In this document: positions 23,336-28,584 of the stretch, one piece after another
How the letters are laid out: the number at the start of each line of letters is the position of its first letter
How positions within the stretch are numbered: the first letter of the stretch is position 1
Assembly (NCBI GenBank): GCA_021781335.1
Contig: JAJXXA010000069.1
Span: 1-64,000, forward strand
Direction of reading: 5' to 3'
Source: Actinomycetes bacterium
Lineage (GTDB): Bacteria > Actinomycetota > Acidimicrobiia > Acidimicrobiales > RAAP-2
DNA length: 64,000 nucleotides
Notes under the pieces: model-generated
Told to the model about the DNA's origin: nothing
Databases searched by the model: none
The model's input: only the letters and a program-made list of their open reading frames with translations
Position numbers and translations under genes: made by a program

Positions 23336-24961
23336 TCAGCGCCGGGTGGGCGCGGCGACGGGCGTCGCGTCGCTCAGCGCCTCACGGGCGTGGTAACTGG
23401 ACCGGGTGAGCGGTGAAGACTGCACGTGCTGGAGTCCCAATCTTTCCCCACGCGCGGCGAGCTCAGTGAACTCCGCAGGATCCCACCAGCGCGCGACCGG
23501 TAGGTGGCGCTCCGTTGGACGAAGATACTGACCGATCGTGGCGATCGATACGCCCACAGCCGCCAGATCCGCAAGGGTCTGCTCGACCTCTTCGAACGTC
23601 TCGCCCAATCCCACCATCATTCCGGACTTCGTCGTGAATCCAGCGGCCTTACTGCGAGCTAAGACGGTGAGCGAACGCAAGTAACCCGCACTCGGTCGAG
23701 CCGCGCGCTGAAGTCTGGCGACGGTCTCGATGTTGTGATTGATCACGTCAGGCTTGGACTCAAAGATGAGTGCGAGCGACGCCTCGTCACCCTTCAGGTC
23801 GCTGATGAGCACTTCGATGTCGGTGTGCGGTGAGCGTTCGCGAATCGCTCGTACGGTGGCCGCAATGGCCCCGGCGCCCCCGTCATCGAGGTCATCGCGC
23901 GCGACGCACGTGATCACCGCATGCTTCAGCTTCAAGCGCACAACCGCTTCGGCGACTCGATCAGGCTCAGTTGGATCAAGCGGCATCGGTTTTCGGGTGT
24001 CGATAAGACAAAAACCACACGCGCGCGTACAGCGCTCGCCATTGACCATGAACGTCGCGGTGCCGTCAGCCCAGCATTCATAGATGTTGGGACATCCGGC
24101 CTCTTCGCAGACCGTCACCAGACGCAGGTCTTCAGTCAGCGTGCGAAGAGATTGGTACTGCGTTCCCATGTTCGCCTCGATGCGTAGCCACTCGGGCTTC
24201 CTCGAACGAAGTGAGATGCCCGCGTCGGGATCGACACCGGCCTTTCGAAGGCGACGAAGGAGCGGTCGCTCGCCCGTCGCCGTAGAGGCGCTTCGATCAA
24301 CTCGTGCGACGTCCTCATCTCGACCAAGGCGGAGGGCCAACTCTTCACCGAGGCGCTCTTCCACGTCGATGAATGCCACGTCGAGACCCAATGACTGCAG
24401 TGACGCAACGGGCTTGTCCGCTATGCCGCATGGAACGATGGCACTGAATCCGGCGAGGTCGATATCGACGTTGAGCGCCACCCCGTGCAGCGTTCGACGA
24501 GCACCGCGCTCGTTTCGCTGCGTGCGCACCCCCACTGCCGCGATCTTCGCGGGTCGAGCGTCCACGTGGGCCCACACCCCCGGATAACCCTCGAGGCGTC
24601 CGACCTCTCCTAGCACGCCGCCTTCGTCAAAGGAGCGCACCGTGGCAATCACCGCGTCTTCCAGGCGAGCCACGTGGTTCTTGCCCGCCGAGGGGTCGTC
24701 GGCCACGGTAACGACCGCCCAGGCGACGACCTGGCCGGGCGCGTGGTAAGTCACGTCTCCGCCGCGGTCTGCGTCGATCACGACGGCATCGAGCTGGGAT
24801 GGCGGCACCAGGAAGTGCTCCTCTTGGGTGCGGATTCCTCGGGTATAGGTGGGTGGGTGTTCGAACAACAAGATGTAGTCGTCACTCGACTCCATCACGG
24901 CACGCTGGAAATCGTTGGCTTCAGCGAACGACACACGCCCGAGATGGCGACGCCTCAACAT
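23336..24961 (-). CDS. lipBA: Bifunctional octanoyltransferase-lipoyl synthase (LipB-LipA fusion)
   Basis: Residues ~1-215 LipB-like (GGDVTYHAPGQVVAW, RPAKIAAVGVR, IVPCGI); residues ~236-541 LipA (CEEAGCPNIYEC and CTRACGFC radical-SAM motif). Single uninterrupted ORF. Confidence 0.93.
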   Translation of the reverse strand: MLRRRHLGRVSFAEANDFQRAVMESSDDYILLFEHPPTYTRGIRTQEEHFLVPPSQLDAVVIDADRGGDVTYHAPGQVVAWAVVTVADDPSAGKNHVARLEDAVIATVRSFDEGGVLGEVGRLEGYPGVWAHVDARPAKIAAVGVRTQRNERGARRTLHGVALNVDIDLAGFSAIVPCGIADKPVASLQSLGLDVAFIDVEERLGEELALRLGRDEDVARVDRSASTATGERPLLRRLRKAGVDPDAGISLRSRKPEWLRIEANMGTQYQSLRTLTEDLRLVTVCEEAGCPNIYECWADGTATFMVNGERCTRACGFCLIDTRKPMPLDPTEPDRVAEAVVRLKLKHAVITCVARDDLDDGGAGAIAATVRAIRERSPHTDIEVLISDLKGDEASLALIFESKPDVINHNIETVARLQRAARPSAGYLRSLTVLARSKAAGFTTKSGMMVGLGETFEEVEQTLADLAAVGVSIATIGQYLRPTERHLPVARWWDPAEFTELAARGERLGLQHVQSSPLTRSSYHAREALSDATPVAAPTRR

Positions 24962-26152
24962 CTAGTGTTCGCTCTCCAGGTCCATACCCGCGAGGAGTTC
25001 CGCCACTCGTTCCAGGTACTCAACCGCGGCCACCGAGTCGCAGACGCGGTGGTCGAACGAAAGACCCAACACCAAGCGTCGGCCAACTTCTATCGTCGCG
25101 ACACCATCTTTCATCACGACAACCGGCACCTGTCGCACCGCGCCGACACTCAAGACGGCTACTTCGGGCTGAATGATGATCGGCTTGATCCACAGCGTGT
25201 TCTCACTTGGCGCGCCCACCATGGTGAACGTGCCTCCCATGAGGTCGTCGGCCGTGAGTTGACGAGACGCCAAACGCTCGCCCAAGTCGCTCACTCGTCG
25301 AGCCAAAGCCCGCAGCGTGAGGCCCGCCGCCGCGTGCACGACGGGAACCAGCATGCCGTCGGCGTCGACGTGTCGCATGAAGCCGAGACTCACCGTGCGG
25401 TGCACGATCAATTCATCGCCCATGTAAGTGGCGTTCAAGAACTCAAATTCGCCGAGCGCACGAACCGCCGCGAGGCCAACGACCATCTCGTCGGTGATGG
25501 CGACGCCGTCACGGGTAACGCGTCCGAGTCGCTCCACGTCAGCGAAGACTGAACCGTCCGCTTCGATGGCGACGAATCCGTGTGGCGTATTGAGTGCCGA
25601 CACCGAAAGGTGTTGACCCATCCGGCGCTGGCCGTTCGAAAGGGACTTGACGACTTCCTCGGTAGGGCCATTCGCGACGGCTCGCTCCGCGTCGCGTCGA
25701 GTGATCGCACCCCCGGGTCCCGAACCTCGAACCGTCGACGCCTCGACACCGCCGTCGTTCAGGATCCTTCGCACAACGGGTGAGAGCACGACACCGTTCT
25801 GACCGTCACCGGCGACACTCGAGGTCGCTGGAGCGGGCCCCGGAGCGGGCGTTTGGTCAGCGGCGAGCGGTGCGGGTGTGGAGGCGCCGCTCGACGACGG
25901 CTCAGCTCCCGCCACGGCGTTTTCGTCGATCACCGCGACGCGTGCGCCCGTTTCGACCGTGTCGCCCTCTTCGGCCAAGATCTGGACCAAGACGCCTGCC
26001 GCGGGCGAAGGCATCTCGGAGTCGACCTTGTCGGTCGAGACCTCGAACAGCGGTTCGTCGCGCGCGACCGCGTCACCAACCTTCTTGAACCATTGTGTGA
26101 TGATTCCTTCGGTGACCGACTCACCAAGCGACGGGAGGGTGACGTCAACCAA
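24962..26152 (-). CDS. 2-oxo acid dehydrogenase E2 component (lipoyl acyltransferase)
   Basis: Lipoyl domain EVSTDKVDSEMPSPAAG; E3-binding SPVVRRILNDGGV; catalytic region FDHRVCDS. Confidence 0.92.
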   Translation of the reverse strand: MVDVTLPSLGESVTEGIITQWFKKVGDAVARDEPLFEVSTDKVDSEMPSPAAGVLVQILAEEGDTVETGARVAVIDENAVAGAEPSSSGASTPAPLAADQTPAPGPAPATSSVAGDGQNGVVLSPVVRRILNDGGVEASTVRGSGPGGAITRRDAERAVANGPTEEVVKSLSNGQRRMGQHLSVSALNTPHGFVAIEADGSVFADVERLGRVTRDGVAITDEMVVGLAAVRALGEFEFLNATYMGDELIVHRTVSLGFMRHVDADGMLVPVVHAAAGLTLRALARRVSDLGERLASRQLTADDLMGGTFTMVGAPSENTLWIKPIIIQPEVAVLSVGAVRQVPVVVMKDGVATIEVGRRLVLGLSFDHRVCDSVAAVEYLERVAELLAGMDLESEH

Positions 26153-27560
26153 CGTGAAGTCCTCGACCGGCCAAGGCCAAAAGTGTCTCTCCGAACGTCT
26201 CAGACAACGACGGGTGCGGCTGGATCAGCGCAGCCGCTTCTTCCGCAGTGGCCTCCCAGTTGACAGCGAAGTAGCCAGCACCGAGTTGCTCGGTGACCCA
26301 CGGACCCGCCATGTGCACGCCGAGGATCTGTCCGGCGGTGCCATCCGCCCGCTTCTCCGCGATGATCTTGACGACACCATCGGTGTCACCAATGATCTGG
26401 GCGCGGCTGTTGCCTCCGAAGGGGTCCTTCTTCACGACGACTTCGTACCCCTTCTCCTTGGCACCCGCCTCGGTGAGCCCACAGAACGCGACTTCGGGGT
26501 TCGAGTAGATCGCCCACGGCACGCGGTCGTAATCCACCGGCACGACCGATTCGCCCAAAATTGTCTTGATCGCAACGATCGCCTCGGCGAAGCCCACGTG
26601 GGCCAACTGGGGCGTGCCGGCCACGATGTCACCGACCGCGAACACGTTCGCGTTGGCGGTGCGCTGGTAGGCGTCAGCAACGACAAAGCCCCGCTCGTCG
26701 AGTTCGACACCCGTTGCGTCACCCAGGAGGCCTTCGCTTCGAGGACGACGCCCGACCGAGATGACGACCATATCGACCTTCACGTCGTCGCTGCCCTCGA
26801 TCTGCACGGCGGTGCCGTTCTTCTTCGGCGTGTGACCGGTGATCTTCACGCCCACTTGGATCTCGATGCCGCGCTTCTTGAACGCACGTTGCACCACATT
26901 GGCGACTTCGGTGTCACAACCAGCGAGAATCGAAGGCAGGCCTTCTAGGATCGTGACCTTTGTCCCCATGTCACAGAGCATCGACGCGAACTCACAGCCA
27001 ATGGCGCCGCCACCAATCACCGCCGCCGTTGCGGGCAGTGAAGAGAGCGCCAAGAACTCGTCGGAGGTCACGACGATCTTGCCGTCGACCTCAAAACCCG
27101 GCAGCGTGCGCGGAACTGATCCCGCGGCCAAGATGACGTTCTTGCCCTGGGCCACGACGCCCTGGTCTGCCCCGTCGAGCACCGTCACGGTCTGGTTCGC
27201 ATCGAGGCGTGCGGTGCCTTCAAAGATTGTGACTTTTCGACCCTTCAACAGACCCGAGAGGCCCTTATGAAGTCGGTCAACGATCTCGTTCTTGCGCGAT
27301 TGGCTCACTGAGAAGTCAACGTCCACGCTGCCAGTCGTGATACCAAAGGCACCCGCATGCTCCAGGGTCCGGCGCACGTGCGCGGTTTCAAGGAATTCCT
27401 TCGCGGGTACGCAGCCGCGGTGCAGACACGTACCACCGACCTTGTCCCGCTCGATAAGCGCCACGTTCATCCCAGCGGCAGCACCGTAGAGGGCCGCAGC
27501 GTACCCACCAGGTCCTCCTCCGATTATGACAACATCGAACTGCTGGACCTCATTAGCCAC
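26145..27560 (-). CDS. lpdA: Dihydrolipoyl dehydrogenase (E3)
   Basis: IIGGGPGGYAAALYGAAAG; GGTCLHRGCVPAKE; VIGGGAIGCEFASM; C-terminal HPSLSETFGE. Confidence 0.94.
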   Translation of the reverse strand: MANEVQQFDVVIIGGGPGGYAAALYGAAAGMNVALIERDKVGGTCLHRGCVPAKEFLETAHVRRTLEHAGAFGITTGSVDVDFSVSQSRKNEIVDRLHKGLSGLLKGRKVTIFEGTARLDANQTVTVLDGADQGVVAQGKNVILAAGSVPRTLPGFEVDGKIVVTSDEFLALSSLPATAAVIGGGAIGCEFASMLCDMGTKVTILEGLPSILAGCDTEVANVVQRAFKKRGIEIQVGVKITGHTPKKNGTAVQIEGSDDVKVDMVVISVGRRPRSEGLLGDATGVELDERGFVVADAYQRTANANVFAVGDIVAGTPQLAHVGFAEAIVAIKTILGESVVPVDYDRVPWAIYSNPEVAFCGLTEAGAKEKGYEVVVKKDPFGGNSRAQIIGDTDGVVKIIAEKRADGTAGQILGVHMAGPWVTEQLGAGYFAVNWEATAEEAAALIQPHPSLSETFGETLLALAGRGLHVG

Positions 27561-27639: not shown

Positions 27640-28077
27640 TTAGGAATGACGTGGTCGCTGGCTGTCTGCTGCCACTGTGGCGAGCGCGTCCACGAAGTCG
27701 TTCATCACATCACCCGAGTGGCCCTTTACCCACGAGAAAGTGACGTTCCGAGAGGAATTCAACACCAGTTCGAAGAGCGGTTCCCACAGGTCGCGATTCG
27801 CGACCGGTTGGCCTTGAGAGTTCTTCCACCCTCGTCGCAACCATCCAACGTGCCACTTGTCGTTAAAACATTTCACCACGTACGTTGAATCGCTCACGAT
27901 CTCAACGGGTCCCTCGACGTTCTCGCGAAGCGCCTCGAGGACAGCCATGAGCTCCATGCGCTGATTCGTGGTCTGCGGCTCGCAGCCACTGGCGAACGAG
28001 TCAGGACCACTCGCCCACGCCCATCCACCGGGCCCCGGATTCCCACGGCACGCGCCGTCGGTATGTATGCGCATCAT
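27640..28077 (-). CDS. rnhA: Ribonuclease HI
   Basis: RIHTDGACRGNPGPGGWA; TNQRMELMAVLEAL; SDSTYVV; start ATGA overlaps the upstream Rrf2 gene stop. Confidence 0.9.
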   Translation of the reverse strand: MMRIHTDGACRGNPGPGGWAWASGPDSFASGCEPQTTNQRMELMAVLEALRENVEGPVEIVSDSTYVVKCFNDKWHVGWLRRGWKNSQGQPVANRDLWEPLFELVLNSSRNVTFSWVKGHSGDVMNDFVDALATVAADSQRPRHS

Positions 28078-28532
28078 ACGGTTCTGGTGATCCACGAATC
28101 TGGGTCTGAGGTGAAGCGAGTCACCGACTCGGGGAGTTCGCCTCGCAACACCTGTCCGAGTGTCACGTGCTCGAGTACTTCACGCAGCGTCCCGCGAACC
28201 GCCACCCACACGTCACGAAGGTGTGTTGCTTCGCCTTCGTACGCGAGGGTCTCGGGTCGCATACCTCGAACACCGGCGAGCGGCCCGCTCACCACGCGAA
28301 GGATATCCGCGATCATGATCGTGTCGGGGTCACGCGCCAATTTGAAACCACCTTCGGGACCGCGCTGACTAGTGACCAATCCACCGCGACGCAGGTCTGA
28401 GAGGATGGCCCCGAGGAACTTCGCAGGGAGTTCTTGCTCCTTGGCGAGATGCTCGGCGCTCACTGACGAGTCACTGGCGGCGAGGGTGAGCAGGGCCCGT
28501 ATCGCGTACTCGGCCTTCGCGGGAATCTGCAT
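28074..28532 (-). CDS. Rrf2 family transcriptional regulator
   Basis: MQIPAKAEYAIRALLTLAA; EQELPAKFLGAILSDLRRGGLVTSQRGPEGGFKLAR; translation contains no cysteine. Confidence 0.88.
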   Translation of the reverse strand: MQIPAKAEYAIRALLTLAASDSSVSAEHLAKEQELPAKFLGAILSDLRRGGLVTSQRGPEGGFKLARDPDTIMIADILRVVSGPLAGVRGMRPETLAYEGEATHLRDVWVAVRGTLREVLEHVTLGQVLRGELPESVTRFTSDPDSWITRTV

Positions 28533-28584
28533 TCCCCCATTCTGCCCCACTCAGGCGCTCACGCGTGGAGCGGGAACTTCTAAG

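Follow-up and report, generated by a model that had tools for sequence, protein, structure and literature searches.

An in-frame fusion of LipB and LipA is the standard form of the two enzymes throughout Acidimicrobiia

How LipB hands an octanoylated domain over to LipA has reportedly been studied so far with separate proteins. The function of the Lys/Cys dyad is known for the LipB of M. tuberculosis and E. coli (PMC9307952), and the roles of the LipA cluster motifs and of the serine ligand have been described (PMC12246082, PMC13232139). Among fused systems, the nearest named relative of the protein reported here is the NCBIfam LplA-LipA fusion (NF053790, LplA_LipA_fuse; bifunctional lipoate--protein ligase/lipoyl synthase), in which an attachment enzyme likewise lies N-terminal to LipA; by its model name the N-terminus there is an LplA-type ligase, whereas ours is a LipB-type Cys/Lys acyltransferase. 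The two-in-one 2-oxoglutarate dehydrogenase OdhA/KGD (PMC10415282) is also an actinobacterial fusion of successive lipoate-dependent activities, but it concerns different enzymes and a different step: OdhA/KGD uses lipoyl groups, and the fusion described here would make them.

In the window (the whole stretch of DNA that was analysed, 64,000 nucleotides), one uninterrupted 541-codon ORF with an ATG start (lipBA, 23336-24961, minus strand) reads as a full LipB followed by a full LipA. Pfam places LplA-B_cat at residues 23-208, LIAS_N at 252-290 and Radical_SAM at 309-465 of the 541-residue protein. Both halves pass the curated NCBIfam cut-offs: the LipB half scores 114.9 bits against TIGR00214 (lipB, cut-off 83.55 bits) and the LipA half 332.9 bits against TIGR00510 (lipA, cut-off 310.25 bits); the LipB half also reaches 84.6 bits against PF21948 (cut-off 27). 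From these matches, the LipB half covers residues 1-212 (24326-24961, minus strand), with RGGD at 66-69 and the dyad K139 (codon 24545-24547) and C178 (codon 24428-24430); residues 213-251 (24209-24325, minus strand) form a linker and the N-terminal lead-in to LipA, weakly conserved and of varying length; and the LipA half, which is further marked by its invariant residues and a match to the solved structure 5exi, covers residues 252-541 (23336-24208, minus strand). The first-pass annotation, made from the DNA letters, had called a genuine single-ORF LipB-LipA fusion and had named K139, C178, the auxiliary-cluster cysteines C285/C290/C296 (CX4CX5C) and the radical-SAM cysteines C311/C315/C318 (CX3CX2C); the fusion is borne out by the domain matches and by its class-wide in-frame occurrence, and every one of these residues is present at its given position. 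To that list we add the RSSY serine-ligand motif at 520-523 of the LipA half. In an alignment of 49 fusions reaching down to 40% identity with the window protein, R66, G67, G68, K139 and C178 of the LipB half are invariant in 49/49, as are the six LipA cysteines together with R520, S521 and S522. Knowledge of the two families, together with these residues, strongly indicates that the protein is bifunctional, catalysing both octanoyl transfer and sulfur insertion.

The two halves agree with the separate M. tuberculosis LipB (1W66) and LipA (5EXI) in fold, in catalytic residues and in the reactions predicted, and other actinobacteria share the adjacent lipB-lipA order; the difference is that here the two are one polypeptide with a linker. 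Separate copies elsewhere, which the first-pass annotation had allowed for, were not found: the fusion is the only lipB or lipA detected by profile and sequence searches of its own genome, which is 88.8% complete, so that a copy could be missing. Against NF053790 the window protein scores 350.9 bits over model positions 330-605, the LipA segment, which is well below the cut-off of 800 bits, and among the NCBIfam models none spans both halves. Both enzymes are thus well known; what we describe is their joined form, which is fixed in one class, and no paper on this fusion was found in the literature searched (subscription papers and UniProt/InterPro architecture pages lay outside its scope); passages of PMC10332631, PMC3917532 and PMC3904984 make no mention of a LipB-LipA fusion.

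The distribution of the fusion was surveyed in Actinomycetota. Matches occur in 39/41 near genomes and in 189/198 genomes sampled evenly from Acidimicrobiia. When 134 loci with a lipB and, after it, a lipA on the same contig were put through a frame test, 109 proved to be fused in frame, L097 among them (locus counts are not species counts, as some loci share one genome). All 109 come from the class of the window or have titles that fit it, with one exception in title, L075. The 25 unfused loci all lie outside Acidimicrobiia and have a stop between lipB and lipA; their genera include Dietzia, Rhodococcus, Nocardioides, Nocardiopsis and Streptomyces, along with others. As a guard against bias to strong full-length hits, 30 genomes of the class whose matches were weak or divided were re-examined: the halves are fused in all 25 whose contig holds both, and five have one half only. 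The sole possible exception in the class is one of these five, G348 (L221; 85% complete), whose LipB stops shortly after the domain and in which neither the downstream DNA nor the rest of the genome yielded a LipA; this could be a real loss or a stray contig. Within the scope of this survey, the fused form is standard throughout Acidimicrobiia, and the two enzymes are separate proteins in other bacteria.

Adjacent, stop-separated lipB and lipA are the arrangement expected of a precursor, and many such pairs also lie close downstream of an E2 gene. In the LipA tree a branch whose SH-aLRT of 69 is low separates the fused sequences from the rest; in the LipB tree they need two changes, and no well-supported branch opposes a single origin. 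Both trees, as far as the sequences go, are compatible with one fusion event. The search for homologues of the same architecture that the first-pass annotation had proposed yielded 109 fused loci, and the trees of the halves give a picture in keeping with one origin.

The locus is compact. The gene lpd (dihydrolipoyl dehydrogenase, E3; 26145-27560, minus strand; TIGR01350, 462 bits) overlaps by 8 nt an E2-like gene (24962-26152, minus strand), and the stop TAG of the latter directly precedes the ATG of the fusion in the same frame (24959-24964, minus strand), so the coordinates and gene order first reported are correct. This zero spacing (TAG-ATG) recurs in most loci of the same genus. The E2-like protein has a lipoyl domain (DKVDSE), a peripheral-subunit/E3-binding domain and a 2-oxoacid acyltransferase core, assigned by Pfam and motif comparison; the HxxxDG motif of the core is degenerate and reads DHRVCDS. 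The genes lpd and E2 stand upstream of lipBA in many relatives of the class, and in the marine relatives L066-L074 lpd is upstream of the fusion, but no homologue of the window E2 was detected there. A scan for promoters and terminators around the operon gave no useful site.

The genome holds several potential substrates for the enzyme: four E2-type proteins, encoded in the window and on contigs C74, C84 and C152, and GcvH on C35. The C84 E2 adjoins E1 alpha and beta genes, and the window Lpd is the only Lpd found in the genome (single match, E<=1e-30). The operon thus supplies parts that all lipoate-dependent complexes have in common, which favours a general enzyme over a private one.

Based on these findings, we propose that the fusion is very probably a bifunctional, general-purpose lipoylation enzyme that carries out both steps for all the lipoyl proteins of the cell and that arose once, in the ancestor of Acidimicrobiia. 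In the proposed scheme, octanoate from octanoyl-ACP would be loaded onto C178 of the LipB half and then passed to a lipoyl-domain lysine, with K139 serving as the acid/base; the LipA half would cleave two SAM molecules and sacrifice its auxiliary [4Fe-4S] cluster, inserting sulfur into C6 and C8 on the same lipoyl domain. The enzyme would serve the E2-type proteins and GcvH, and its operon-mate would be the only E3. The fusion would have come about when the stop dividing neighbouring lipB and lipA genes was lost, a single time, in the ancestor of the class. Likely gains from joining the two would be a fixed 1:1 stoichiometry and a short path for the octanoyl-domain between the active sites.

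How far the two halves work together can be approached through predicted structures. AlphaFold2, run with an alignment of the class, gives the window protein a mean pLDDT of 90.3 and a pTM of 0.91, and an Actinomarina-type fusion (L088), 40% identical to it, a pLDDT of 87.8 and a pTM of 0.88; pTM values of this size indicate a confident prediction of how the two domains lie relative to each other. In a fold search the LipA half matches 5exk (TMt 0.93, 48-49% identity) and, as a separate match, the LipB half finds 1w66 (TMt 0.83, 38% identity); the nearest solved structure for the LipA half is M. tuberculosis LipA 5exi (E=3e-88). That the LipB half passes the octanoylated domain straight on to the LipA half may be suggested by this confident predicted packing, the one line of evidence that speaks for it, and co-operation between the halves is accordingly only hinted at. 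Among the 49 fusions, anything from 50 to 105 residues lies between positions 190 and 256, the majority residue has a mean share of 0.31 over residues 206-231, and the pLDDT of the linker region, 63, marks the lowest block there. Because the linker is variable, it argues against a strictly conserved inter-domain mechanism.

Two ways of reading the joined halves follow. In the first, the fusion is neutral: the halves act independently on a flexible tether, and equal expression is its sole effect. The variable length and low conservation of the linker fit such a tether, and since lipB and lipA are already adjacent in relatives, the loss of a stop suffices to produce it. However, no split locus occurs in the class among those with both halves on one contig, and the pTM of 0.88-0.91 in two distant members predicts a defined arrangement of the domains. 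We consider a neutral fusion a serious possibility, though one we would not presume; it is a sub-case of bifunctionality, and its probability overlaps that of the general-purpose enzyme proposed above. The second, which we put forward tentatively and regard as rather doubtful, is that the halves are packed into a rigid module whose interface is conserved, so that a lipoyl domain octanoylated at LipB might re-dock on, or swing to, the LipA of the same molecule. If true, this would be physically coupled de novo lipoylation, fixed in the ancestor of an entire bacterial class. As a natural fusion whose domain arrangement is predicted to be fixed, the protein lends itself to structural and kinetic work on whether the two steps are coupled.

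Another possibility is that the fusion is a private factor, which docks on the adjacent E2-Lpd and modifies mainly the adjacent E2; the first-pass annotation had likewise suggested a hand-over, possibly in complex with the neighbouring E2/E3. The tight lpd-E2-lipBA order in the window, and the presence of lpd and E2 upstream of lipBA in many class relatives, would agree with such a role. Yet three further E2s and GcvH need lipoate and no other LipB/LipA was found, Lpd is single in the genome, and the marine loci keep lpd without a detectable window-type E2. One LipB/LipA and one Lpd for four E2-type proteins and GcvH do not favour a private complex. The adjacent E2 is, moreover, a divergent, core-degenerate paralogue. 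Operon E2s elsewhere in the class mostly carry the canonical DHRxxDG active-site motif near their end; in the window's genus the motif is DHRV/I-x-D/E: none of the aligned sequences of the genus keeps the glycine, and most have Glu in place of Asp. In two genomes of the same family (L134, L135) the catalytic His is gone. These motif-eroded proteins retain the lipoyl lysine and the E3-binding domain. A paralogue on C74 (G000:C74:6524-7885; L121:367-1725, minus strand) has an intact motif, DHRAVDG, and comes closer to the operon E2 of other families (about 50-63%) than the window E2 does (about 41%); in many genomes of the same genus no match to a C74-type E2 was found, and the degenerate operon copy is the only one found. 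From these sequences, the present role of the window E2-like protein can reasonably be inferred to be chiefly that of carrying a lipoyl group and anchoring E3. The genome also encodes OdhA/KGD, which has its own succinyltransferase domain (YDHRIIQG) and requires lipoyl groups in trans (PMC10415282); the window E2-like protein is possibly a core-inactive lipoyl carrier that serves OdhA, in the manner of an E3-binding protein. We therefore judge a dedicated complex with the neighbouring E2/E3 improbable and retain the general-purpose enzyme as the preferred reading.

It is likewise improbable, in our estimate, that the LipA half is also produced alone, through an internal start or proteolysis of the linker. 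The weak conservation of the linker would permit this, and at least one in-frame ATG or GTG lies within the linker stretch in 45 of the 49 aligned fusions. However, the most widely shared start column is common to 16/49 at most, and for the one GTG of the window linker no Shine-Dalgarno-like site was found. An internal start for the LipA half was accordingly set aside, as the 49 fusions offer no conserved candidate. A search across the window for a perfect Shine-Dalgarno sequence with an ATG gave none.

Finally, although the source genome is a fragmented MAG of 156 contigs, an assembly or sequencing artefact joining two genes, which the first-pass annotation had raised as a danger, has practically no chance of being the explanation, because the same in-frame fusion occurs in independently assembled genomes across class relatives, including the single-contig G030, G117 and G150, and in the named isolate Acidiferrimicrobium sp. 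IK. The probability that the frame at 23336-24961 is open by chance or through a local error is negligible, as same-class genomes share the in-frame fusion.

Its distribution makes lipBA a candidate molecular marker for Acidimicrobiia. Because no model or paper was found for a LipB-LipA fusion, automatic naming could assign 'lipoyl synthase' alone and so score these organisms as lacking lipB. L075, a MAG titled Bifidobacterium breve, has an lpd-E2-lipBA locus of the Acidimicrobiia type whose protein is 50% identical to the window protein; because of this identity and the Acidimicrobiia gene order, we take it as mislabelled, and the name of the record is probably wrong.

Of additional note, the genome has one other LplA-B_cat-like match, a divergent protein of the LplA/LipB superfamily on C127 (L119:1321-2043, minus strand; 241 aa), which scores 18.9 bits, below the cut-off, and has no Pfam or NCBIfam match above cut-off. 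It is kept in 39/41 near genomes; a protein so conserved across the order could contribute to lipoylation. Upstream of lpd, at a distance of 79 nt, lies rnhA (ribonuclease HI; 27640-28095, minus strand), and upstream of rnhA and overlapping it is a gene for an Rrf2-family regulator (28074-28550, minus strand), both assigned by Pfam/NCBIfam. Where the contig extends far enough, rnhA is at the same position in the same-genus loci checked (L038-L049), as is the Rrf2-family gene in most of those checked (L038-L048); an Rrf2-family protein near an operon for an Fe-S enzyme may be regulatory.
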